From the NCBI GenBank assembly GCA_964017185.1, contig OZ024875.1:65219043-65283042 (forward strand): DNA of 64,000 nucleotides, read 5' to 3'. A program made the translations under genes and the position numbers. The DNA comes from Rugalucina vietnamica (Eukaryota; Mollusca; Bivalvia; Lucinida; Lucinidae). Position 1 is the stretch's first letter. Each line of letters starts with the position of its first letter. The notes beneath the pieces are model-generated. The model was given only the letters and a program-made list of their open reading frames with translations, was not told where the DNA came from and did not search any database. Of this stretch, positions 5,179 through 52,398 are shown piece after piece.

Positions 5179-8100
5179 CTGGAACAGAAAATGGGTCAAG
5201 ATCAATAATCTTACCAAAAATAGGTCATGGTCAACAATTTTATAGAAATAGTGAAGGCCACGGGGAACTATATTACAGAAAGAATAGGTCAAGGTTGACA
5301 TTCTAACTTTATATTTGGAATGATTTGAGGGATCCAGTGTTAAAAAGAACAGGGCAGAGTTAACAATCTTTCATAATAAATGCTTTTGTATCTTCCATCC
5401 ACCAACTTTTTCAGTAATCTCTGTATAGTAATGCCATTTTTCTTGAACCAGTATTCTGGGGAACTTCAAATGTTTTGTTCTATGATAAAGCATGGTGGTG
5501 GTAGTTTTTAAACTGACTTTAATATTAATTTCTCTTTCCTGCAGTATAAGGCTCTACCACTGTTTTCCTTACTATAGAAAAGGTTGTTTGATCCTATTTA
5601 CCAGCACTCTTGCTAGCGGGATCCATGGCAGTCATTCTGCCTCCTTGAGAGAGTAACAGATCAAGCTTGTATACTGAAACTCAAGACAAGACTGCAGGAC
5701 CTCGAAATCTATACTGTCGTACAACACAAATAAACTTACCGGCATTCTTGCTAGCGGCGTCCATGGCAGTCATTCTGCCTCCTTGAGAGAATATTAGATC
5801 AAGCTGGTAAACTATAGCTCAAGGTATCAGTGTCATACTGTCATACAGTGTTATACTGTCATACAACAGAAACTAACTTACCGGCATTCTTGCTAGCGGC
5901 GTCCATGGCAGTCATTCTGGCACTTTGCTCACTACACGCTGCCTCCTTGAGAGAGTAATAGATCAGACTGGTAAACTGGAACTCAAGGTACATGTACGAC
6001 TGCAGGACCTCCGAGTCTATACTGTCGTACAACACAACTTACCGGCATTCTTGCTAGCGGCGTCCATGGCAGTCATTCTGGCGCTCTGCTCACTACACGC
6101 TGCCTCCTTGAGAGAATAGTAGATCAGACTGGTAAACTGGAACTCAAGGTACGACTGCAGGACCTCAGAGTCTATACTGTCGTACAACATCAGTTTCTCT
6201 GCGTCTTTGACAGTCTCCTGTCTGGCCAGAGGCAGTTTTGTGGTTCTGTAGGATATCACTGATCTGAAACAAGAGACAGAGTAGATAGTTTTAGGCTACA
6301 AACCTTTTATTTTCCTGAACATGAAATTTCAACTGCTCATAAAGATTAAAGAAGTTAAAATAACAAAATCTGTTTTCCATTATTCTATACAACTGAGGGT
6401 ATACCGATGGACAACAGCTGAAATTATATGACCATATTTAGACCATTTGCGCCGCGATGTGAGAAAAAAAGGTTTTCGGGGATTCCAACCAGGTCTGACA
6501 CAAACTGACCTGTACAGTCAAGGAAGCAGGCTAGAAGCTGGAAATTTTGGATTTTAAGTAGAAGAGGAATTGTACTATCCGAGTAGCGAAAACAAAGGCG
6601 CTGATCAGCTTTGTAGATTATATTTTGCTGTTATGCGAAGCTGATTTGTGCCTTTGTTTTCTCATAAGCGAAAAACCGGTTTTCTCATAAGCGAAAAACC
6701 GGTTTTCTCATAAGCGAAAAACTGATTTTCTCATAAGCGAAAAAACGGTTTTCTCATGAAACGACTCATTTAGAAGACAAATCTTCATAAAGGACACATG
6801 CCAGATCTGACACTCGATCTTGGAGACCACAGATCTTTTTCTTTTCAACATAAGTCGACACACAAAAAAACTGAGCTATTGCTCCTTAAACCAAATATTT
6901 TATACTGAGCACCAAGCCAAGTCCTGCTTGCTAGTGTGCCAAGTTTCTCTCCTGGTTCACCAGATTTTGCTCTATCTACAAATTGGCCTATCTACAAATT
7001 GGCTAATCTCATATGAGTGCATTATTCTTTGGAGGAATGTAAAATCTCCTAAAAAGTTTTATGGACCTTTTGAGTCACTTGGCAACAAACAGATCTGTGA
7101 GATGAGAGCAATTCTTTGTACATGTTTTAAAGAGAGGAAATACCAGGGGTTGCAGGTTCATTCCTGGGCTTCTCTAGTCTGTCAGATGAGACTATAAACC
7201 GAGGTCCCGTCTCCATATGACCTTAGCTGCTGGTGGAACCTTAAACCCCAATCGATCAATCAATCAAAAAGAGGAAATAACTTACTTGAAAAAGTTATAA
7301 TAGAGTGTTCCTACATCATATTCGTACGGTAGTTCAAGTATAGATTGTGACAGGAAGGCTGCATCAGCAAATGATGGTGGTCTCTTGCCAATGTTGTTGA
7401 ATGACATCAATACATTCTTGCCATACAATCTAGAAATAGAAAATTTTAAGATTTTAAGAGACATGCTATGATTTGTTTGTTTTGTAGTTAAACATCTAAC
7501 TGATGTACATGCATATAAAGGTAATGGTGTTAAAGGAAATTGCAATGTAATTGGTCATATAATTTGTTCTGTTTAAAAGTTCGGCTAGATTTAATTTTAT
7601 GGTGAAATCTAGATACAAAAAAAGCCTCTCAAAGAAAGATAACCAGAACTTAAAGCAAATTCCTTTAACCACTAAATGAAAATTGCTCATGAATCAATAG
7701 CCTTTTTCTAATTATCATTAAACTAGAATTGTCAGAGAATCTGACTATAGCCCCGCTTCTCAGCTTTTTTGTAGGGTGAAAAAAACAATGACAGGTAACA
7801 ATCCCAAGCTAGATCTCATCAATATTGATGCGCATTTTTGGTCTGATTATGTCAATTCGTTCTCAAGATATTGAGCAGAAACGAAATTCTGAAGTCAATC
7901 AAGGGCCGTAACTCCATCAAAATTTTGCAAAAATGACCGGTAACAATCCCAAGCTAGATCTTGTCAATGATGAAGTGCATACAAAATTTGGTCGGATTCT
8001 GTCAATTCGTTCTCAAGATATTGAGCGGAAACGAAATGCTGACGTCAATCAAGGGCTGTAACTCCTTCAAAATTTTGCGAAAAATGACGGGTAACAATCC

Positions 8101-11100
8101 CAAGCTAGATCTTGTCAATGATGATGTGCATACAAAATTTGGTCAGATTCTGTCAATTCGTTCTCAAGATATTGAGCTGAAACGAAATTCTGACGTCAAT
8201 CGAGGGCTGTAACTCCGTCAAAATTTTGCAAAAAACGACGGGTAACAATCCCAAGCTAGATCTTGTCAATGATGATGTGCATACAAAATTTGGTCGAATT
8301 CTGTCAATTCGTTCTCAAGATATTGAGCGGAAACGAAATTCTGACGTCAATCAAGGGCTGTTACTCCGTCAAAATTTTGCGAAAAATGACGGGTAACAAT
8401 CCCAAGCTAGATCTTGTCAATGATGATGTGCATACAAAATTTGGTCAAATTCTGTCAATTTGTTCTCAAGATATTGAGCGGAAACGAAATTCTAACGTCA
8501 ATCAAGGGCTGTTACTCCGTCAAAATTTTGCAAAAAATGACGGGTAACAATCCCAAGCTAGATCTTGTCAATGATGATGTGCATACAAAATTTGGTCAGA
8601 TTCTGTCAATTCGTTCTCAAGATATTGAGCTGAAACGAAATTCTGACGTCAATCAAGGGCTGTAACTCCGTCAAAATTTTGCAAAAAATGACGGGTAACA
8701 ATCCCAAGCTAGATCTTGTCAATGATGATGTGCATACAAAATTTGGTCGGATTCTGTCAATTCCTTCTCAAGATATTGAGCGGAAACGAAATTCTGACGT
8801 CAATCAAGGGCTGTAACTCCGTCAAAATTTTGCGAAAAATGACGGGTAACAATCCCAAGCTAGATCTTGTCAATGATGATGTGCATACAAAATTTGGTTG
8901 GATTCTGTCAATTCGTTCTCAAGATATTGAGCGGAAACAAAATGTTCACGGAATGACTGAATGACGGAATGACAGAATCACGGAACCACGGAAGGACAGG
9001 GTGAATCCAGTATAGCCCCACTTTTCCAAAGCGGGGCTATAATAAGATGTGGGACCCAATTAGCAAAAGCTATGAAATGTATACTTAGCAAAACTTCTAC
9101 ACTGAAATGGTTCAACACGAAACTGAAAGAACGAGATTTTTTGTATACTTACCTTGCATCACCCTTGCCAGCTTTGCAAATTTACTGTAAATCCGTTTTC
9201 TGCCTTTATTTAATGTGCATCACATCACCTGCAGGGTGCTGGTGGACTTACTACTGTAACTGAGCCTTGTCTTCTATCAGCACTATTTTGCCTCACTCGT
9301 GTCTTTGTGTTCCAAGTCGGACTTTATTGTTTTACAGATGGACAGTGTACACCCACCTGCCCCCTTCCCAACTGCCCAACCGGGCTGACTTACTTCTGTA
9401 ACTGGGCCTTCGCCTTGTCTCCTATGAGCACTAGTTTTGTCTCACTGGTGTCTTTGTCTTCTAAGTCATGCTTGATTGTTTTACAGATGGACAGTGTACA
9501 CCCCCCTGGCCCCCTACCCTTCCCAACTGCCCAACAGGGCTGACTTACTTCTGTAACTGGGCCTTCGCCTTGTCTCCTATGAGCACTAGTTTTGTCTCAC
9601 TGGTGTCTTTGTCTTCTAAGTCGTGCTTGATTGTTTTACAGATGGACAAGTGTACACCCCCCTGGCCCCCTACCCTTCCCAACTGCCCAACAGGGCTGAC
9701 TTACTTCTGTAACTGGGCCTTCGCCTTGTCTCCTATGAGCACTAGTTTTGTCTCACTGGTGTCTTTGTCTTCTAAGTCGTGCTTGATTGTTTTACAGATG
9801 GACAAGTGTACACCCCCCTGGCCCCCTACCCTTCCCAACTGCCCAACAGGGCTGACTTACTTCTGTAAGTGGGCCTTCGCCTTGTCTCCTATGAGCACTA
9901 GTTTTGTCTCACTGATGTCTTTGTCTTCTAAGTCGTGCTTGATTGTTTTACAGATGGACAGTGTACACCCCCCTGGCCCCCTACCCTTCCCAACTGCCCA
10001 ACAGGGCTGACTTACTTCTGTAACTGGGCCTTCGCCTTGTCTCCTATGAGCACTAGTTTTGTCTCACTGGTGTCTTTGTCTTCTAAGTCGTGCTTGATTG
10101 TTTTACAGATGGACAAGTGTACACCTCCCTGGCCCCCTACCCTTCCCAACTGCCCAACAGGGCTGACTTCCTTCTGTAACTGGGCCTTCGCCTTGTCTCC
10201 TATGAGCACTAGTTTTGTCTCACTGGTGTCTTTGTCTTCTAAGTCGTGCTTGATTGTTTTACAGATGGACAGTGTACACCCCCCTGGCCCCCTACCCTTC
10301 CCAACTGCCCAACAGGGCTGACTTACTTCTGTAACTGGGCCTTTGCCTTGTCTCCTATGAGCACTAGTTTTGTCTCACTGGTGTCTTTGTCTTCTAAGTC
10401 GTGCTTGATTGTTTTACAGATGGACAGTGTACACCCCCCTGGCCCCCTACCCTTCCCAACTGCCCAACAGGGCTGACTTCCTTCTGTAACTGGGCCTTCG
10501 CCTTGTCTCCTATGAGCACTAGTTTTGTCTCACTGGTGTCTTTGTCTTCTAAGTCGTGCTTGATTGTTTTACAGATGGACAAGTGTACACCCCCCTGGCC
10601 CCCTACCCTTCCCAACTGCCCAACAGGGCTGACTTACTTCTGTAACTGGGCCTTTGCCTTGTCTCCTATGAGCACTAGTTTTGTCTCACTCGTGTCTTTA
10701 TCTTCCAAGTCATGCTTGATTGTTTTACAGATGGACGAGTGTACGCCACCACACAACCCTCGGTCGGAGGTCAATGCCACTATCAGCTTCTTGGGTTTGT
10801 CCTCATCTTGTTTGATATCTGCCTTTTCATAGAATGCTGAAAACAGACATGGAAAATAATTATTTTATGGCTCCGAGAATTGCATTTGAGCCTGTGCATG
10901 AGAAAACCAACAATTTGGGTTTCCGACCAGCTCTGACACAAACCAGGCTGTATAGTCACAGAAGATGGGTAGAAGCGGGAAAATTTATATTTAGAAAGTA
11001 GAGGAATTGTACTATCCGTGTAGCAAAAACAAAGGTGCTGATCAGCTTCCCAGTTACTGCGAAGCTGATCTGCGCCTTTGTTTTTGCTTATGCAAATTGT

Positions 11101-14100
11101 TGGTTTTCCCATGCATCGGCTCATTTTTAAATGCATGTAATACATACCAGCCTCTCTATTCTACAATGAAGTTTTGGAAACAAATTTATTACACGTATCA
11201 TTGCTGGAGCCTAAATGACCATTTTAAACTTACAAATAAAGTACAAATTGTAAACATATTTATACCTAACTACAGTTAACTCTTTTTATAAAACAGACTG
11301 GATATCAACCAAGGAAATTGACTTAGTTGTGGCCAACCTGAAACACATTTCTTTCTTTTTATATCACCACAAAATACCCATATCTTTGTTGCACTTTTTT
11401 CACCACAAAATACCCATATCTTTGTTGCACTCTTTTCACCACACAACACCCATATCTTTGTTAGACTTTTTCACCACAAAATACCGATATCTTCGTTGCA
11501 CTTTTTGCACCACAAAATACCCATACCTTTGTTGCACTCTTTTCAGCACAAAATACCCATATCTTTGTTACAATTTTCACCATAAAATACCCATATCTTT
11601 GTTGCATTTTTTTTTTCACCACAAAATACCCATATCTTTGTTGCACTTTTTTCACCACAAAATACCCATATCTTTGTTGCACTTTTTTTCACCACAAAAT
11701 ACCACAGGCGCTCGACGACTGGACTCATTTTTTTTTTTTTTTGCATTTTCACCCGTTGGAGACCCTTACGATATGTTCATGCAATTATTTTACCTTTAAA
11801 ACCTTTTCTATCAATCCTCAATCAACCCTCGTCTATGGGCTACTATATAGACAAGGTCGGAAACGCGGTGTCCTAGTTTAATTAGGGTCATGGGATTCCC
11901 CGCATCTCAAACTCGTACTTCACCCTTTACCGTTATTTCAATGCTGAGTGTCTACTTATGAGCGACTATGTAAAAGGTCTCACCCATTGCCTTCGTCAAA
12001 AATAAGCATAGTCGCCCGTAAACTTATATTTTATACCACCACCTGTCTACTTGGATGGGATCCCGAATGTTTTTGTATGGTGACCTTTCGTTTCTAGAAA
12101 TCAGTGGAAGGTCACTGTAAATATCGTATGAAAGAATCAATCTTACTGGATAATTGTATTGCATTGTTGCCATGACACTAGATCACAAAGTGTTTTGATT
12201 GGATATTAAATCAGCAACCTATGAAAACCAACGTAACACATATCACGTGCTGGCATAACACGTCGTGTGACCAGTGTATTTATAGTAATGTCACGGCTAG
12301 ATTGCCGATTTCATTCGGGATGTCCTCCAATTCTGTAGAATGCTTTAATTGTTAGTTTTTACGGGCGGTGGTGCTTATTTTGAATAAAGGCAATGGTCGA
12401 GATCTTTTACAAAGACACTCATGTATTGACAGCCAGCATTGAAATAACGGTAAAGGGTGAAGTATGAGTTTGAGATGCGGGGAATCCCATGACCCCAATT
12501 AAACTAGGACACCGCGTTTCCGACCTTGTCTATATAGTAGCCCATAGACGAGGGTTGATTGAGGATTGATAGAAAAGGTTTTAAAGGTAAAATAATTGCA
12601 TGAACATATCGTAAGGGTCTCCAAACGGGTGAAAATGCAAAAAAAAAAAAAAAACAAAAAAAAAACAAACAAACAAACAAACAAATAAGAGCTGTCGCAG
12701 GACAGCGTGCTCGACTGCTTCTGACCTTTGTCAAACATAAGGCCAAACCCGACCAGTAACCCAAAGCATTATGCTCATACATCTTTTTGCCTTGATGCAA
12801 TAAGGCAAAATCACTGAACCATGAAAGTTAACTGTAACTACTTAAGATTTAAAAATCTCACTCATATTGTGAAAGAAGTGTGTTCATATACCAACTGAGT
12901 GCCAAGACTCAAGGCAAAATCACTGAACCATGAAATAAGGTCACACTGACCTATAAGTATTTCAGGGTCAAAGGTCTAGTGATACTTACTCATAATGTGA
13001 AAGAAATATGATCATATACCCATTCAGTGTTGAGATATAAAGCAAAATCACTGAACCATGAAATTAGGTCATAGTGACCTATAAGTATGTTTGAGTTAAA
13101 GGTCTGGTCATACTCATTCATAATCAGAGGAAGTATGAAAAAATACCAACAGAGTGTCGAGATATAAGGCAAAATCACTGAACCATGAAACTAGGTCACA
13201 GTGACCCAGGAATACTTTACGGTCAAAGGTCTTGTCATACGCAAACATATCATGAAAGAAGTATGTTCATATATCAATTGAGTGCCGAGATATAAAGGAA
13301 AATCACTGAACCGTGAAATTAGGTCATATTGACCTAGGACTACTTTAGGGTCAAAGGTCTTGTCATACACAAACATAGTGTGAAAGAACTTTGTTCATAA
13401 ACCACTTGAGTGCCGAGATATAAGGCAAAGTCACTGAACCGTGAAATTAGGTCACAGTGACCTATAAGTATATTGGGGTCAAAGGTCTGGTCATACTCAC
13501 CCATAATCTGAAAAAAGTATGAAAATATACTAACTGAGTGTCAAGATATAAGGCAAAATCACTGAACCGTGAAATTAGGTCACAGTGACCTAGGACTACT
13601 TCAGGGTCAAAGGTCTTGTCATACGCAAACATACTTTGAAAGAAGTTTGTTCATAAACCATTTGAGTACGGAGATATAAGGCAAAGTCACTGAACCGTGA
13701 AATTAGGTCACAGTGACCTATAAGTATATTGGGGTCAAAGGTCTGGTCATACTCACCCATAATCTGAAAAAAGTATGAAAATATACTAACTGAGTGTCAA
13801 GATATAAGGCAAAATCACTGAACCGTGAAATTAGGTCACAGTGACCTAGGACTACTTCAGGGTCAAAGGTCTTGTCATACGCAAACATACTTTGAAAGAA
13901 GTTTGTTCATAAACCATTTGAGTACGGAGATATAAGGCAAAGTCACTGAACCGTGAAATTAGGTCACAGTGACCTATAAGTATATTGGGGTCAAAGGTCT
14001 GGTCGTACTCACTCATAATCTGAAAGAAGTAAAAAAATATACTAATTGAGTGCCAAGATATAAGGCAAAATCACTGAACCATGGAAAGTAGGTCAACTGA

Positions 14101-20814: not shown

Positions 20815-23730
20815 AGTTCGTCTCTCACTAATGAGAAAGACCATCATTATTTCTTGAATAGTGCTGATGTGTGTTGGTGAGTTCTTTGATGGCTGACTAG
20901 GCCAATTCTGGCTCTAAACTGTCGGTTGCAAGTAGAGCAAGTCAATGTCATAGAGTCTGCTGGTGGCACATTTGTTTTGGCTTTGCGCTCTCTTCGCTTT
21001 CTTTCAGCTTCACAGATTCTCTTCTTTTCATAGAGAGCTGCTCCTTTGTTGCTGAGACCTCGCCACTTTGATCGCTTCTGTGCAGTCTGTTCCCAGGACC
21101 CCATTGGTATTTCGAAATCCTTCAGAGAGGCTTTGAGGGTGTCTTTGTAGCGTTTCTTCTGGCCACCTTGAGAGCGCTTTCCCTCCTGTAGTTCTCCATA
21201 GAAAACTTTCTTTGGAAGTCGTGCATCAGGCATTCTTATAACATGGCCAGTCCATCTTAGCTGTGCTAGCTTTAAGACTGTATGCATGCTTTGCATCCCT
21301 GCTTTCCTCAGGACCTCTGTGTCTGGAATCTTGTCCTGCCACTTGATTTTTAACAACTTTCTCAAACAGCTTAAGTGGAAATGGTTAAGTCTCTTTGCAT
21401 GGCGTTGGTATACTGTCCAGGTCTCACATGCATACAAGAGGGTTGGCAGTACCACAGCCTTGTAGACTTTCAGCTTGGTGTCAAGCTTGATTCCATTTCG
21501 CTCCCAGACATTTGCACGGAGTCTTCCGAATGCCACACTAGCTTTTGCAATTCTGGCAGTGATCTCATCATCAATATGCACTGCTCTGGAGAGAGTGCTT
21601 CCCAGGTAGGTGAACTTGTCAACAACTTTCAGTTTTTGCCCATTCACAGTGATGGTTGGTTCATTATATGGTTTTCCGGGGGCTGGTTGGTGTCTTTTTT
21701 GTGCTGATTGTGAGATCATAGTTATCACATGACTGTGAGACTTGATCCATGGCTCTTTGCATTTTTGCCTCTGTGTTGGCATTCTTATCCATATCATCTG
21801 CATAGAGGAGCTCATCTAGCACATCAGTCTGGACCTTAGTTTTGGCTTGCAACCTTCTGAGGTTGAATATGTTGCCATCAAAACGGTACCTGATTGGAAA
21901 ACCAGTGTCACTGTCCTGAAAAGCATCCATAAGCATGGCAGAAAACATCATGCTGAACAGTGTTGGTGCCAGAACACAGCCTTGTTTGACCCCATTTGTT
22001 ACTTCAAATGGTTCAGAGAACTCTCCATCATTTTGCACACGTGCCTGCATGCCATCATGAAACTGCCGCACCATAGCTATGAATCTGGGTGGACAGCCAA
22101 ACTTGGCCATGATTTTCCAGAGTCCATCACGACTAACAGTGTCAAAAGCTTTGGTGAGGTCAACAAACGTCATGTATAGATCTATATTCTGTTCTTGGCA
22201 TTTCTCCTGAAGCTGTCTTGCTGTGAAGATCATGTCTATTGTCCCTCTGTCTTTTCTGAATCCACATTGACTTTCTGGGATGAGTCCTGTCTGATCAAGA
22301 TGAGCATTCAGACGATTTAACAGAATTTTTGCAAGTATCTTCCCAGCAATTGATAGGAGGGAGATGCCTCTGTGATTGTCACAGACTTGAGGATTTCCTT
22401 TCCGCTTGTATAGGTGGATTATGGATGCATCCTTAAATTCTTGTGGGATAGCCTCCTTCCTCCACATACAGTGAAACAACTCTGTCAGTTTCTCTGCCAT
22501 GGGTAGCCCCCCAGCCTTGTAAACTTCGGCAGGAATTGCATCTGCACCTGGGGCTTTGCCAGATGATAGTTGTTGAACTGCTTTTCTTGTTTCCGTAACG
22601 GTAGGAAATTCATCTAACAGAACATTGCACTCTATCTGTGGAAGTCTGTCGATTGCATCCTGATTGATGCTTGATGGTCGATTAAGCACACTATTGAAGT
22701 GTTCTGCCCACCTTTCCAAGATAGCTTCTTTATCTGTGAGAAGAGTGTTTCCATCTGCACTGAGCAATGTGGTGGCTCCAGAACTCTTTGGACCATAAAT
22801 GGTTTTCAGTGCATCATGAAATTTCTTCATGTCCTTTCTATCCGCAAAAGACTGAATTTCTTCTGTTTTCTTCCTCAGCCAGGAATCTTGCATGTCCCTA
22901 AGCTTGGTCTGGACTGTCTTACAAATGTTGCTGTAGGCTGCTTTCTTTGATACTGAGCTAGTATCATCTTGATGTGCCTTGAGCAAACGGTGCTTTTCTT
23001 CAAGAAGCCTCTGAATTTCATCATCATTCTCATCAAACCAGTCTTGATGTTTGCGAGATGGATGGCCTAAGGTGCTTGCAGCTGAAGAAAGAACTGTTTT
23101 ATGGAAAACTGTCCAGTTTTCTTCGGGGTCCTCTGAACTGAGATTCATTGCATCTAGTTGGTTGCAAATGTCTGTTAAGAAATCTTGTCTCATGCTGTCT
23201 TTATTCAGCTTTGAGACATCCAGTCTCTTAGGAGCTTTCTTGCCTTGAGGTCGCCTCGCAGGCTGTATTCTTAGGTTGAGTTTGCTGACAACCAGTCTAT
23301 GATCTGTCCAGCAGTCTGCACCACACATAGTCTTTGTCACTTTAACATCCTGCCTGTCTGTTCTCCGCACTATGACATAGTCTATGAGATGCCAGTGTTT
23401 GGAACGGGGATGCATCCAGGATGTTTTGTTCCTATTAGGTAGACGGAAGACTGTGTTGGTGATTAGAAGATCATGTTCAGCACACTTCCTGAGAAGCAAG
23501 AGACCATTGCTGTTGCACTTTCCAACCCCTTCTGGACCTATAACTCCTTCCCAGGTCTGGTGGTCTGTACCCACTCTGGCATTAAAGTCGCCAAGAAGGA
23601 TAAGCTTGTCTGTGCGGGGTGTTGCAGAAATAACATTGTCTAGGTCATCATAGAACTTGTCCTTGACCTCATCTGGATTGGTCTTATTTAATGGGACTAG
23701 GAAGGACAGAAAAGTAAAGTTCCACAAGCT
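20815..23730 (-). pseudogene. non-LTR retrotransposon (APE-RT with C-terminal C2H2 finger), 5'-truncated
   Basis: The first frame (23,727-21,664) has the second half of an APE endonuclease (LLGDFNARVG at about residues 44-53, TDHRLV at 141-146). A reverse transcriptase follows, with GISLLSIAGKILAKILLNRL, VDLTKAFDTV, GVKQGCVLAP and the YADD box. Near 21,690 a frameshift moves the protein into the frame ending at 20,847. That part has the thumb (YLGSTLS, LLYACETWTV, RWTGHVIRM) and a C-terminal finger CSTCNRQF...HQRTH (CX2CX12HX3H). Residues after YADD look deleted. The clade is uncertain, perhaps RTE-like. A 3' fragment of the same family is at 60,027-60,231. Confidence 0.85.
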
Positions 23731-23819
23731 AGAAATTTTTATAGGATTTTAACATTCTCATTAAAATTATGTATGGAAATTGTCACAAATCAGTGGTAGC
23801 ATAAGGAAAAACATGTTTT

Positions 23820-26255: not shown

Positions 26256-26454
26256 AACCACAAAAACACAACAACATGAAACAATCCAACTATGCTTGTT
26301 GAATAGGCCATTCATTGACTGGTTCCTTAAATCCTGTATCTTTATGGGCGTATCTTTAGCCTGCAGCCTAAAGGTACCGTACCATATCTCTAGCCACTGC
26401 CTTAAACAATACGCTATGCACGAGGGCAGAAAAATGATTTCTTAATTGGAGACC

Positions 26455-28867
26455 CCCCTTAATTCATATTTTAGGTGATTTCAACTTTAGAGATATTGTA
26501 TGGCCGGACAGACTCAGCAAATCTGGGTCATCATTGAGTCCGACGGAGGGTCAGATTTTGATAGATATCATGAATGACCATGGTTTGGAACAATTAGTCA
26601 ATTTCCCCACCAGAGAAAGAAATACTTTGGACTTAATTTTGACCTCTCTTCCTGGTCAGTTTGTAGACATTCATTCCCCGGATAAGCTCAGTGATCATGA
26701 CATTGTTTCTGGCACATTGAGAATTGCTATCCCCCCTATAAAGAAACCTAGGAGAAAAGTGTATCGTTATCAGAAAGGTGATTATGAATCTATGAGAGCA
26801 GAAACACTTAAATTTGCAAAGGAAAGATACTTCAACGGTTACTCAGATACTCGGTCGGTCCAGGAAAATTTCAATCTCATTACATCGTTTATTCAGGAAT
26901 CGGCAGATAAACATATCCCCTCAAAAACTAGTCGCTTAGTTTCCTCTGTCCCTTGGATAACACCTGAAATAAGAAGGAAGATTCGCAGAAAAAATGCAAC
27001 TCATGCAAAAGCTAAAAAGACTGGTAGTGCAAAATTTAGATCTAAATTTGAATCTTTACGGAAAGAGATCAAAGCTGATATCAGGAAGCAGCATGATCTT
27101 TATGTGAACAACTTGGTAGGAGATGTTAAGGCTAATCCTAGAGATTTTTACAGGTACATAAACAGTCAGAAAAAAGATACCCAAGGTATTCCCCCGTTGA
27201 AAAAGAGAAATGGAAGTGGAATAGCTCAATCTGAATTTGAGAAGGCGGAAGAATTTAATGGTCAGTTCTCGGATGTTTTCACTAAAAGTGAATACAAACA
27301 GGTCCCTCTTATGGATAGATCTGCCCCATTCATGCATGATATTGTGGTCACAAAGGAAGGGGTGACCAAACTTCTCAAAGGTCTAAACCCGTCTAAAGCC
27401 TTAGGGCCTGATGAGCTTCATCCTAGAGTCCTAAAGGAACTGGCTATGGAATTAGGGCCAGTATTCGCCCATCTCTTCCAGCAGTCAATTGATACAGGTG
27501 AAATTCCTAAAGAATGGTCTCTTGCTAATATTTGCCCCCTGTTTAAGAAGGGCGACAGGTCACTTGCCCGCAATTACCGCCCTGTTTCTTTGACATGCAT
27601 TCCTTGTAAGCTTCTTGAACATATTGTATGCTCAAATATTATGGCCCATCTTGATGAACATGAGCTCCTGTCGGACAGGCAACACGCATTTAGGAAATGG
27701 CATAGCTGTGAAACTCAGTTGACTACAGTGATAAATGACTGGGCCAAAATCTTAGACAAAAAAGGCCAGGTCGACACTTTTATACTCGATTTTGAAAAGG
27801 CTTTCGATACTCCTCCCCATGAACTCCTTAAAAGCAAATTGTTCAGCTATGGAATAGGTGGAACAACACTGAATTGGATAAATGCTTTCCTTTGTTTCAG
27901 ACAACAAAGGGTAGTGGTTAATGGTATTAAATCGGATTGGGCTCCAGTTGTGTCGGGTGTCCCTCAGGGCACCGTTCTCGGCCCCTTGCTGTTTTCCTTG
28001 TATATAAATGACATCTCAGCAGACATAGAGTCTGAAATAAGACTCTTTGCTGATGATTGTGTTTGCTATCGTGAAATCAAGAATGAAGAGGATACATTGA
28101 AACTTCAAAGAGACATTGATCGCCTAGGCAGTTGGGCTAGAAAATGGGGAATGAGATTTCAACCCGTCAAATGCAACATGATGCAGCTGACAAATAAACG
28201 GTCTAGTAAGATACAGGCTAACTACACCCTTGAGGGCACTTTACTGGAAAATGTTGAAAGCATAAAATACCTGGGTGTAACTATCACAAATGATTTGAAA
28301 TGGAATACTCATATTTCCAATGTTTGTACAAAGGCTAACAGAACTCTCGGATTCTTGAGGAGAAATTTGTATTCTTGTCCCCCAGATGTGAAAGAAGCAG
28401 CTTATAAAGGACTGGTGCGGCCGGTCTTGGAATATGGAAGCTCAGTTTGGGACCCTCACACTCATGGCCTCCAGGAAGAACTGGAAAAGGTCCAAAATCG
28501 TGCGGCAAGGTTTGTGACGGGAAATTATGTTTTTGAAACTGGGAGCATGACTGGCATTTTAGGTCAACTGAAATGGGAATCCCTTAAGAAAAGGAGGAAG
28601 GATAGTAGACTTATATTGCTATACAAAGGTCTAAAGGGTAAAGCCAGAATACCCACAGATGACCTTATCCCAAAGAATAGGCGTTGTAGAAATCAACACT
28701 CGTTGGCTTTTCAGATACCTTCAGCTAGCAAAGAAGCGTACAAAAGTAGTTTCTTTCCACAGACTATCAGGGACTGGAATGACCTCCCTGATTCACTTGT
28801 CTCCTCTGCTGAAATGTCTGATGACTGTGTGTCCAAGTTCGCTTCACTCGTGCGTTCAAGGGACTAA
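26455..28867 (+). CDS. non-LTR retrotransposon polyprotein (partial EN, complete RT), CR1/Jockey-like
   Basis: An open 777-codon frame runs from ATG 26,534 to 28,867, and in-frame coding extends back to about 26,455 (LGDFNFRDIVWPDRLSKSG). The element is thus 5'-truncated within the endonuclease. Seen in order, numbered from ATG 26,534: the EN C-terminal motif SDHDIV (residues 53-58), RT fingers PLFKKGDRSLARNYRPVSLT (about 335-354), catalytic ILDFEKAFD (417-425), GVPQGTVLGP (475-484), FADD (505-508), thumb KYLGVTITNDLKWNTHISNV, and C-terminal FFPQTIRDWNDLP. The catalytic aspartates are present and there are no internal stops, so this is a fairly recent copy. A short 3' UTR ends near 28,955 with ATTCAG repeats. 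Confidence 0.85.
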
Positions 28868-31855: not shown

Positions 31856-33815
31856 CTACAGGCAAGACCAGGAAGGCATACCACCTCTGAAAGACAATGA
31901 CTTCCTCCTCACAGAAACACCCGCCAAAGCCAACCTGTGTAACCAACAATTTCAGTCAGTCTTCACAAAAAATCCCCACTTTCCCTTTCACGTCTAGCCC
32001 AAATGAAAGTACAGGACCTAGTTGATGAGGGCAGCATACCTCCTGAATCCATTCCAGACCCCTACCTTAATTCCACCCCAGTCATGCCAGATATAGATAT
32101 ATCCCTCAATGGCCTCTTGAAACTCCTGAAAAATCTAAAACCTGGAAAAGCCGCAGGACCAGATCAGCTCAAACCATTGCTGCTCAAGGAGCTCTGGGAT
32201 GAGATAGCACTAGTTTTCAAAGTTATTTTTGATAAATCTCTCCAGACAGGAACGCTACCTACAGAATGGCTTACCGCTAATGTAATACCTGTCTTCAAAA
32301 AGGGAGATAGATCCTTAGCGGCTAATTACAGACCTATTTCCCTAACCTGCATTCTCTGCAAGGTACTCGAACACATCCTAGCGTCAAACATAGTTAAACA
32401 TTTAGACGCGCAGGAAATCATGTATGACATGCAGCACGGTTTCAGAGAAAAAAGATCCTGTGAAACCCAGCTTGTCATGATGATTGAGGACCTTGCAAGG
32501 AATGCCAATGCGGGAAATCAGACAGACGTAATACTCCTTGACTTTTCGAAGGCTATTGATATAGTCAGTCACAGTAAGCTTCTCTGGAAACTGCACCAAT
32601 ACGGTATCAGGGGCAATGTGCTGAGCTGGATTCAAGCCTTCCTTGGGAATAGGTCCCAGCAGGTTGTCATTGATGGCGAGGAGTCCGACTCCATACCAGT
32701 GAATTCCGGTGTCCCCCAAGGATCGGTTTTTGGTCCGATCCTTTTCCTCGCCTATATCAACGACTTGCCTGGTGGGATCTCGTCCCAAGTACGTCTTTTT
32801 GCAGATGACACTGCCCTCTATCTCACTATCAAGGGTAAGGAAGACAGCTCGGCACTTCAGAAGGACCTGGACACACTGTCGGTATGGGAGTCCAAATGGG
32901 ACATGCAGTTAAACCCATCTAAATGCCAGGTGGTACAGGTGACAGGATCCAAGAGTAAGAAACCTATAAATTCAGAATATATTCTCCATGGACAGGTCTT
33001 GGAAACTGTCACTTGTGCCAGATACCTTGGTGTTGACGTGTCAAGCACCCTATCTTGGAACTCCCATATCGATCGTGTGGTCAACAATGCTAACAGGACC
33101 TTAGGCTACATCCGTAGAAATATTAAATGCGAAAATACAGATGTCAGGGAGTCAGCCTATAACACTCTAGTTAGGCCCCAGTTAGAGTATGCCTCTGCAG
33201 TATGGGACCCACATACTAAAGAGCGTATCTCTAAAATTGAAATGGTCCAGCGAAGGGCTGCTCGCTGTACTCTTAGAAATTTTGACCATCAGGCATCTGT
33301 AACTGAGATGATTAACAAACTAGGATGGAGAACATTGGAGCAAAGGCGAGCTGATGCCCGTCTTTGTCTTTTTTACAAGATTGTCTATGGTGTGTAGCAG
33401 TCCCTCTCCCAGATCATGTGCAGTATAGCCACAGAATCTCTAGATACTGCCATTCGATGACCTTTAGACAGGTGTACACTTCAAGAGATTATTATAAGTA
33501 TTCATTTCACCCCCTCGCCATTGTCCAGTGGAATGCCCTCCCCGAATCTGTTGTATGCTTACAGAGTTTGGATGCCTTCAAGGCTGCTATCTGTAAGCTG
33601 CAACATTCTCGACCATAATCCCACAAAGCTTGTTTTAACCCTGCTTTTAGCTAATTCTTATCTATTTTAACCTATCATCTTTTTTATCCTTCACTTTCAC
33701 CCTTTCATCCTCCCTAAATTTCATTCTTTTACCTGTCTGATACTAACAGACTATGCGCACACCTGCCTAGAATGTCCGCGAGGGCGTATGGCAGTATATA
33801 GAGATAGATAGAGAT
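31856..33815 (+). pseudogene. non-LTR retrotransposon (RT and C terminus), near intact but frameshifted
   Basis: Coding sense begins near 31,856 (YRQDQEGIPPLKDNDFLLTE), shifts near 31,995, then runs open for 464 codons (32,003-33,397). It includes VIPVFKKGDRSLAANYRPIS, VILLDFSKAID, GVPQGSVFGP, RLFADDTALYL and YLGVDVSSTLSWNSHI. A small deletion near 33,395 moves the C terminus (VAVPLPDHVQ, VQWNALPESVV) to the next frame, ending at 33,618. The FSKAID motif replaces the usual KAFD. The 3' end (GCGAGGGCGTATGGCAGTAT with an AGATAGATAGAGATA tail) is at about 33,770-33,815. Confidence 0.8.
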
Positions 33816-42004: not shown

Positions 42005-44640
42005 CACACGGTTATCAAAGGCGGTTCGCTGATTTTCCCGAAAACGAAAGATACCATGCAAGTTATCTTTCGATATTGGTTGCTAATATTTTTTGCAATT
42101 ATTTTCTATCATTTTGACGAAGTTTTCGTCCTAAAATCGAATATTGCGACATATTTAAAAGCGGTGTCATGGTACTTACTCCGAATCACGTTTAACGGCA
42201 TTTTGTCATTTTATGCCATCAAAGGACTAGGATTGTTTGATGTTTAGAACTAAAGGTATATTTTTACATTCTTGGTGTTTAAGTTATAAAATTAAGCGTG
42301 AACAATGAAATAATCTGCGCTTTTAACAAGCATCATATAATATTCCGTCGTTATTCCGATCTCCCATGGAACATCGTGTGTTCGATGGGGTGGGGTTGAG
42401 CAAACATATCTATGGGAAAATGCCGCCGAAATAAGGTTCACTGTATGACTACATGCTCAGAATTTGAAGGATAAACCCATCGGTGGTGATATATAGTCCA
42501 TGATTCGGATTACCTCCAATTGATTCGCTTTGACTTCAATTATGCATTGACTTTCACGCTCCAGGGGTCACAGTCGCGTGCTTGGTCAAAAATTAAAACC
42601 ATTGAGTTGGCGAGGAAAGATGATACTAAGTTTATAATACTCAAATCATTCATATGCGCATGCGCAGCAATTGTCATGAGCTTGATCCGGAATGGGTAGA
42701 ATAATTGTATTTAATACAAGCAATTGTTTTGGGGTGATGGTCAAACAAAGCAATGTTTAATGGCATTGTCAGAAGTGTTACTGCATATAATATATTATAT
42801 GAGTCGTGGAGTAGGACATGGAAAACTGGCTTTCTCTGATAAAATTTGTCTCGGTGCGAACGGCGAATGCAACACACGCAACACGTTTTTAATGCACCAG
42901 TCTTTTGTAACCACTGCTCCCCCACATACGCGGGAAGGGCGGGGATAATGACTTTTCAGCTTTCAGTGCCCTTCTATGTGCCTCACCGCAGGGGCCAAAC
43001 TGGAGGTCAAAACATTGCTCTTTGCCCCGCCTTCGCAATAGAAAAACCCTCTGGGCTAAGGATCCTAATGTCAAAACCCAGTCACTCCCCCTGAACTGAG
43101 AGGACACTCGAAAAGTAATTGCCCTGCACTTTTACCCGGCTACCCAACCCTTCCCCGTAGGTGGAGGGACAGTGGTTACAAATGACTGGAGCATACCATC
43201 ACCGGAATTGAGTTTTCCATTACGGTACCACTCCAAAACTTCAGTCCAATGTTCTACACGGCTACCAAACAGTTAAATGCGTAGCCGCCGGTTGAGATTA
43301 GACATCCGATTCACGTCCTTCCGGTTTTGCGTGTGAGGTGCAACAAAATGTAAACAAAACATACACTACTCGTTTCGATCGATAATTATTTTGTAGTACA
43401 GAACGGTATCAAAAATCTATGAATGCTATTTTGTCACTTAGTTCTCATTGTTAGACAGCACCAAAACAGTTTGCAACATTACTTGATGTTTTTGGGGGTT
43501 ATTTGTTCCCTACTTCGAAATATGTGTTTCAACACGGTCAAGAACGGCAAAATACAACTAAAAATTGGGCAGTTTGCTGTTAAATATCATGTTTTTGTGA
43601 TTGTTCCGCGACAAAGTAGTTATATATCAAATAAATTACAACTGATGTCTGCCACAGTAATCACTTTTCTTAGGGTTCAACATTTATTTTATGAAGGGAA
43701 GAAAAAAATGGTTAAGCATTTAATCATTAAAATAAGAAGGATTTATTACAAGATATGTTTGAAAACCTCTACCTGTTTTATGATATTTGACATTCTCTGT
43801 ACAGCGTCTTAGATGAAAGCAAACGAAAATAAAAGCAAATTACAGTATTCACAATGTTTTAAAGTCTAAGTTTGATCATAAACAGGAATACCATACATGT
43901 GAATTACAGTGTTTTGTATTGCATGTTTGTTGCAAAAATGTTTGTATTTTGATATATACCAAGTACTCTCACTGCAAACATCACAAATAAACCAATTTTG
44001 GATTTTTTTTTTCATTTTCCTTGAGAGGGGGTATTAACTGGGTTAATTATTTTTAACATTATCACTCACTAAAACCATGAGCAAAAGGAAAACCAAGGTA
44101 TATTTAAGGCTTTTGTATATGCAGATTCTCGTTTGTTTGTTTTTTCTTGCACACCACTGTAAGTCAAAAACCCTTCAATAAAACTTGATTTGTAGAGGTA
44201 AAAACCATACAAAGATGACGAGACAAGTTGTGATAATTAAATTGTTAAACGTAGAACTCGAGAGAGAAACTAAAATACAGGTGCTTTTAATGTCGATTAT
44301 TTTGCTATCATTCTAATGATTAAATGCGTGACCGAAATTTTGACACAGCTTTCAGCCACATATACATAGAATGAAGCAGTCAATGGCAAGGAAAGTGTTC
44401 ACAGAACTTATACAATGTTAAAATCATCTGTTCGCTGCCTTGCCGTCCGTTTATAATGACGCAATTAGCGGGGATCTAAAAATATCCCTATGACTGACCC
44501 ACATTTTCTTCATGTACAATGCAATCCCAACATGCATTTTGGAGGAGGGAATAAAAATCACGATTATAAGGCAACAAATCTGAAAATCCTTAGAGATACG
44601 ATAAGATCAATTTATAACTAACAAAATTGCATTGAGAAAA
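42005..44640. other. intergenic, no gene recognised
   Basis: I looked for exons and repeats on both strands and can support none. The 129-codon frame at 43,423-43,812 has no recognisable domain or coding-like composition. A GC-richer stretch at 42,890-43,170 may be part of an unknown repeat. Confidence 0.4.
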
Positions 44641-44647
44641 TTTTATT

Positions 44648-44839
44648 ACCTTATGACTGCAATGTTAATCATGGGGAAATATTTTTCATACCTTACTGCA
44701 CGCGCGGTGTCTAGGGCAGTTATGCAGGTAGAGAAAATACTTTACCTTATGACTGCAATGTTAATCATGGGGAAATATGTTTCATACCTTACTGCACGCG
44801 CGGTGTCTAGGGCAGTTATGCAGGTAGAGAAAATACTTT
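44648..44839. repeat. two-copy 96-bp tandem duplication
   Basis: ACCTTATGACTGCAATGTTA starts at 44,648 and again at 44,744, and the copies are nearly identical (one substitution in the GGGGAAATAT region). The second copy is followed by related AAAGTACTTTCC / GGAAAGT pieces to 44,910. Confidence 0.9.
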
Positions 44840-51814: not shown

Positions 51815-52398
51815 TTTGATAATATCTTGAGAACTGACAGTTGTATGCACATCAACATTGACATGATCTAGCTTGGGATTGTTGTCTGTCACGTTTTGCA
51901 AAATTTTGACGGAGTTAGGCCTATGATTGATGTCAGAATTTAATTTCGGCTCAATATCTTCAGAAAGAATTGACAGAATCTGACCAAAGTTTGTACGCAC
52001 ATCAACATTGACAAGATCTAGCTTGGGATTGTTGCATGTCATTTTTTTCGCAAAATTTTTCAGACATACGGCCCTTGATATGTCAGAATTTCGTTTCCGC
52101 TCAATATCTTGAGAACGAATTGACAGAATCTGACCAAAATTAGTATGTACATCAACATTGACAATATCTAGCTTGGGATTGTTGCCTGTCATTTTTTGCA
52201 AACTTTTGACAGAGTTATGACCCTGATTGATGTCAGAATTTCGTTTCCACTCAATACCTTAGAACAAATTGACAGAATCTGACAGACCTTTTTATGTGCA
52301 TCAACATTAAAATGATCTAGCTTGGGATTGTTTCCCGTCATCGTCTTGAAAAAAGCACAGAAGCGGGGCTATAGTCAGATCCTCTGACAATTCTAGTT
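51815..52398 (-). mobile_element. truncated copy of Helitron2/pearl-like element 3
   Basis: Four units of about 150 bp carry CTAGCTTGGGATTGTT (near 51,869, 52,019, 52,169 and 52,318). The intact 5' terminus on the right has GCGGGGCTATAGTCAGATCC TCTGACAATTCTAG. The 3' terminus seen at 9,030 is missing on the left. Confidence 0.75.

Follow-up and report, generated by a model that had tools for sequence, protein, structure and literature searches.

According to the accessible parts of two reports, the so-called mirages of lancelets are tandem duplications of exon-intron boundaries, in which either the 5' or the 3' boundary may be involved (PMC3087553, PMC3902484). They have been described in Adh3, the globins BflGb6 and BflGb9, troponin C and PGBD5 (PMC3087553, PMC3902484), the second report listing further cases. 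In the same excerpts the globin units measure 150-160 bp in BflGb6 and 157 bp in BflGb9 (PMC3087553), those of Adh3 being shorter (10-72 bp). Many, but not all, of the copies keep splice signals, and the inner units evolve in concert while the units at the edge have diverged (PMC3087553, PMC3902484). According to these excerpts, splicing of the globins was not visibly disturbed by the mirages as judged by RT-PCR, and haplotypes differ in the number of units, BflGb6 having six and three (PMC3087553). Among the top-listed openly licensed papers no mirage from a spiralian or a mollusc was found; for Mytilus lysozyme, the available part of the report describes tandem repeats within introns only (PMC3448621).

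The window analyzed here, a stretch of 64 kb, lies on one contig of a genome of 1.09 Gb (47 contigs). The best homeobox match to Lox5 in this genome is 96% identical over all 67 residues, the tail PKLTGP included. The KLTGP tail of Lox5 we take to be a marker of spiralians, and the match supports a spiralian and not a lancelet origin of the genome. The minus strand of the window carries the gene for ATP synthase gamma (ATP5F1C), with the following exons:

16258-16224, minus strand: exon 2, with its own acceptor present
15233-15102, minus strand: exon 3
10836-10638, minus strand: exon 4, the real exon, 199 nt, ending CAGAA/GTAAGT before a phase-2 intron
7429-7286, minus strand: exon 5, the true next exon downstream
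6263-6043, minus strand: exon 6, 221 nt, copied in a second array
5178-5078, minus strand: exon 7, the last coding exon, with the stop

When spliced via the first donor of exon 4, exons 2-7 form a single stop-free open frame, and the joined product matches PF00231 from end to end (1-285 of 285) with an E value of 7e-77 and 259.4 bits, against a curated cut-off of 39.9. All five PF00231 matches listed genome-wide fall inside the window. The name "exon 4", used by an earlier sequence-only reading of this DNA, is made plausible by exon 2 with its own acceptor, but no exon 1 of ATP5F1C was found. A short exon at about 9150-9180 was ruled out as the next exon, as the conserved protein resumes at 7429-7286 and the joined frame is open; intron 4 measures 3208 nt.

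Exon 4 is followed by an array of partial copies of itself, the units of which are numbered here in the direction of transcription:

10744-10589, minus strand: u0, the original of the repeat unit, made up of the last 107 nt of the real exon and the first 49 of the intron
10588-9226, minus strand: nine partial copies u1-u9, of 155 or 156 bp in u1-u7, 149 bp in u8 and 125 bp in the degenerate u9

The array anatomy and the copy identities, like the intact and dead donors and the sister arrays described below, were read directly from the DNA. Tandem Repeats Finder reported the array at 9264-10744 (period 156, 9.6 copies, 96% matches, score 2710), and together with the extraction of units this bore out the claim of the sequence-only reading that nine tandem partial copies of exon 4 lie downstream of the real exon. 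Within the exon of 199 nt the unit begins at nt 93, and it spans the exon-intron boundary of the real gene; the length of 155-156 bp given for it holds in seven of the nine copies, u8 and u9 being shorter. Pairwise identity among u1-u8 is 96.0-100%, while u9 shares 81.5-83.1% with all others; the inner units are homogenised and the edge unit has diverged. The complete original exon 4 and its splice site are kept beside the array. When the outer end of the array (9236-9400) was searched for genome-wide, there were at least 10 matches, a lower bound as only the best candidates were scored, and all those listed lie at the exon 4 locus. This much of the sequence-only reading is supported: tandem copies derived from an exon, a succession of decoy donors, and a gene that was found at a single place.

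The array resembles the lancelet mirages in its boundary-spanning units, similar unit size, splice signals in seven of nine copies and diverged edge unit, and, judged by its sequence, it has each of the tested features of the mirage type. It differs in its apparently spiralian host, in having nine copies, against six and three in BflGb6, and a G-quadruplex motif in nearly every unit; moreover, splicing and length instability have been examined in lancelets, whereas the exon 4 array is known from the sequence of one haplotype. We consider it quite probable that this is a neutral minisatellite of the mirage type, and we infer that it grew by unequal exchange or slippage, that the first donor is used and that the array has no function. 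The near identity of u1-u8 (96-100%) could also be expected if the assembler had wrongly multiplied one exon 4, but an artefact of this kind is very unlikely in view of the distinct mosaic differences among copies (two GG donors, a one-base deletion in five copies, a degenerate u9) and of independent arrays of the same kind elsewhere, each with its own variants.

The donor positions of the copies are as follows:

10481, minus strand: donor position of u1, GT lost, reads GG
10171, minus strand: donor position of u3, GT lost, reads GG
10326, 10015, 9860, 9704, 9548, 9393 and 9251, minus strand: first intron bases of seven intact decoy donors

Each copy had been said to have its own 5' splice site, which holds for the seven of nine that keep GT and fails for u1 and u3. 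Between -6 and +8 six of the decoys (10326, 10015, 9860, 9704, 9548 and 9393) do not differ from the real donor; that of u9 at 9251 has diverged, with GT kept. In a phase-2 intron a GTAAGT donor always reads ..G TAA GTN; the in-frame TAA is the donor itself and no separate feature of the copies. If the first donor were skipped, a stop would follow directly past exon 4, and the modelled product from exon 2 has 120 residues and ends in KAQLQK. All decoys would yield this same product, because the frame meets the TAA within the real exon's own GTAAGT. The expectation that choice of a wrong donor would change or truncate the C terminus has thus to be narrowed: truncation is possible, but not a C terminus altered in different ways, since the product of every decoy ends in ...KAQLQK.

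It is most likely, as far as can be told from the DNA, that the first donor is used and is chosen by its position. The acceptor of exon 4 would pair with the first transcribed donor to give an exon of 199 nt; with a later live donor the exon would measure at least 510 nt, and translation would end in it at once. As six decoys match the real donor locally from -6 to +8, order or distance would have to separate it from them. In mammalian test constructs with two identical 5' splice sites, the intron-proximal one is often preferred. Such a preference counts against use of the first donor, since by it the last donors would be used and the protein would be broken. If decoys were used often enough to matter, the stop after exon 4 would lead to nonsense-mediated decay, and the length of the array would tune the output of ATP synthase gamma. 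We regard this as improbable, even though the six decoys are identical to the real donor over those positions, follow nearly the same 107 exonic nt and all bring the same early stop. The nearest decoy, u1, is dead, so that the nearest live donor would need an exon of 510 nt instead of 199, u9 has diverged, and the lancelet mirages apparently left splicing undisturbed, in the accessible part of that report (PMC3087553). A dead nearest donor is expected by chance at about 2/9 (two dead among nine), and nothing is therefore built on u1 being dead.

The real exon was also compared with its copies, the sequence common to u4, u6 and u7 serving as reference. They differ at 6 of 107 exonic sites, five of which are synonymous third positions (P = 0.0016 for at least 5 of 6, the synonymous share being 0.20), and the intronic part shows no difference in the 47 sites entered, against 5 in 21 synonymous sites (Fisher P = 0.002). 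Joint divergence of the exon and the intron start is unlikely, because the intronic part should then differ too. On the simplest reading of this one haplotype, a recent exchange with the array has involved the donor side of the real exon and not its body; the working donor would then seem to be part of the recombining unit. Some copies are mosaic, u2 having GCA and u8 CAT as in the real exon and unlike the other copies, as expected of mosaic exchange. At four of the five synonymous sites u9 can be read, as an older state, and there it agrees with the real exon twice and with the copies twice. Part of the synonymous changes thus seem to have occurred in the copies, and the skew does not cleanly reflect selection on the exon. 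It is possible that the copies were seeded from another allele of the exon, and coding constraint on the copies is possible as well.

The predominance of synonymous substitutions between exon and copies is what could be expected if the copies were alternative exons kept for splicing diversity. This is hardly credible, as the unit starts inside the exon and so lacks the exon's 3' splice site, and a frame-shifting one-base deletion near the unit start is present in five of the nine copies (u2, u3, u5, u8 and u9). The sixth site at which exon and copies differ is a substitution in four of u1-u8 and a one-base deletion in the other four. Inspection of the unit by eye revealed no further acceptor that has a pyrimidine tract.

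Arrays of this architecture are not confined to exon 4, which makes an isolated oddity at this locus less likely. The second array of ATP5F1C follows exon 6:

6034-5600 (3' end approximate), minus strand: three degenerate, donor-bearing partial copies of exon 6, starting at 6034, 5868 and 5726

All three copies keep a GT donor, and the array was partly detected by Tandem Repeats Finder, with periods of 138 and 161. Furthermore, in a gene of the CCT chaperonin family PF00118 (L065, C8:61644000-61648700) an exon is followed by seven donor-bearing tandem partial copies spaced at 171-178 bp, each of which again begins at a point within the exon and extends past a GT donor. About 8 kb from this array, and probably in the same PF00118 gene, an exon with its donor occurs three times in tandem at 144 bp (L064, C8:61636000-61638500). 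The intronic part of the latter is C-rich with CAG at its end, and may look like a 3' splice site; these copies might be complete pseudo-exons. Two further PF00118 exons (L024 and L026) have degenerate partial copies upstream with an acceptor-like AG, mirroring the donor-side arrays, so that both splice sides are affected across the exon-edge arrays of this genome. The recurrence of the architecture at exon 6 and in the PF00118 gene, and the occurrence of both splice sides, are counted in favour of the mirage type.

A further point concerns the G-rich start of the intron, on the sense strand past each donor:

9352-10621, minus strand: nine canonical G-quadruplex motifs, each of the units u0-u8 having one shortly past its donor

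The unit u9 has no such motif, and the total for the window is 10 canonical motifs. Quadruplex formation in this part of the unit may have driven the expansion, given that nine of the 10 motifs of the window lie inside the array, one per unit in u0-u8, as compared with 11 motifs in about 197 kb of survey loci. By its title, one paper ties the instability of the human minisatellites CEB1 and CEB25 to G-quadruplexes or Cdc13 (PMC3486850). The exon 4 array resembles minisatellites of the CEB1 type in its G-rich tandem units with one motif per unit; it differs in its unit of 155 bp, mostly derived from coding sequence, and in having two sister arrays in the genome that lack the motif. The exon 6 array has no canonical G-quadruplex motif, and in the seven-copy PF00118 array the intronic part is, by eye, A+T-rich and without the motif. 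We thus reject quadruplexes as a general cause and think it rather unlikely that they drove the expansion at exon 4, although they may add instability there. In the 144-bp PF00118 array, runs of C would form a quadruplex motif on the other strand.

The association of such copies with exons was assessed in a survey of three families. For PF00118, 48 of 57 matches were used (30 loci and 18 of 19 stretches, L086 being left out), two of which, L034 and L035, were afterwards removed because they copy the L033 exon, both remaining in the flank control of 356 windows; for PF00004 all 21 listed matches were used and for PF00227 20 of 38. At a distance of up to 600 bp, direct copies (partial or whole) accompany 7 of 87 exons and 8 of 356 flank windows (P = 0.015), the 87 exons not being independent (several loci per gene) and a few perhaps not being real exons. 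By family, the exons with a nearby copy were 6 of 46 in PF00118, none of 21 in PF00004 and 1 of 20 in PF00227. Three of the seven cases (L020, L084 and L090) are short or distant degenerate fragments, and a 28-bp match in L060, below the threshold of 40 bp, was not counted. Such an excess at exons is not predicted by a purely random process; however, a slow-evolving exon stays recognisable beside an old copy, so this measure may favour exons. By Tandem Repeats Finder, arrays with a period of at least 60 cover 1.5% of exon bp and 8.4% of flank bp, and 2 of 87 exons are affected. Since the two measures disagree, no targeting of exons is claimed.

In the window and the survey loci together (228 kb), 44 array rows with a period of at least 30 were obtained, some of which represent one array in overlapping loci (e.g., three of 144 bp). 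Half of them (22) have a period of 125-199 bp, and the exon arrays thus share a unit size that is common in this genome. A tblastn search of the surveyed exon peptides against 39 array units, which might have revealed further exon arrays, matched only the two known PF00118 arrays, with peptides from their own loci and from related exons. Several of the other units look like dispersed repeats, for example one common to L021 and L054. In a 96-bp unit at 44634-44839 (2.1 copies, 96% alike), a candidate for another exon array, no conserved exon was recognised. Three muscle-myosin matches on C3 (16465077, 16466025 and 16467003, the last extending to 16467095) are spaced at about 1 kb, have similar profile ranges and were not counted; they are probably ordinary alternative exons, which occur in molluscs for myosin.

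Other repeats of the window include an element at 7739-9048, the terminal inverted repeats of which measure 20 nt and are 90% complementary. Inside it a tandem repeat of 151 bp is present in 7.7 copies, and a unit resembling that of this element lies at 51841-52341. At 11728-12652 there is a foldback structure with arms of 295 nt (89% complementary), and long open frames at 21667-23748, 26438-28864 and 31943-33394 resemble, by eye, the endonuclease and reverse transcriptase of non-LTR retrotransposons.

Tandem duplication involving splice signals is also found in intron gain by tandem genomic duplication, in which AGGT is a known detail. The potato RdRp gene is reportedly a case of this (PMC4974935). 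In the exon 4 array, however, the duplicated block already holds an existing donor and the start of an intron; no new intron is seen, and the array lies inside one old intron. We return to a minisatellite of the mirage type, for which the following course may be proposed. A block made up of the 3' end of the exon, its 5' splice site and the first part of the intron would have been duplicated in tandem, and would then have grown via unequal exchange or slippage. The outermost copy, u9, would be the oldest and decaying, and the inner eight would be under ongoing homogenisation. The array would be tolerated because the duplication leaves one complete exon with its donor at the upstream end, and it is probably a harmless by-product of repeat growth. 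A more far-reaching proposal, to which we give a slim chance, holds that exon-edge arrays are a standing mutation class in housekeeping genes of this genome, that the working donor is exchanged with the array, dead GG units included, that order alone decides which of seven locally identical donors is used, and that array length sets the loss of transcripts to decay.

The present findings extend the rare mirage repeat type, reported from lancelets alone in the papers found, to a distant animal lineage, where it occurs several times in one genome. With decoys that are locally like the real donor, the exon 4 array offers a natural test of 5' splice site choice. Finally, the position of a functional donor inside a recombining array that also contains dead donors suggests that such arrays carry a cost.
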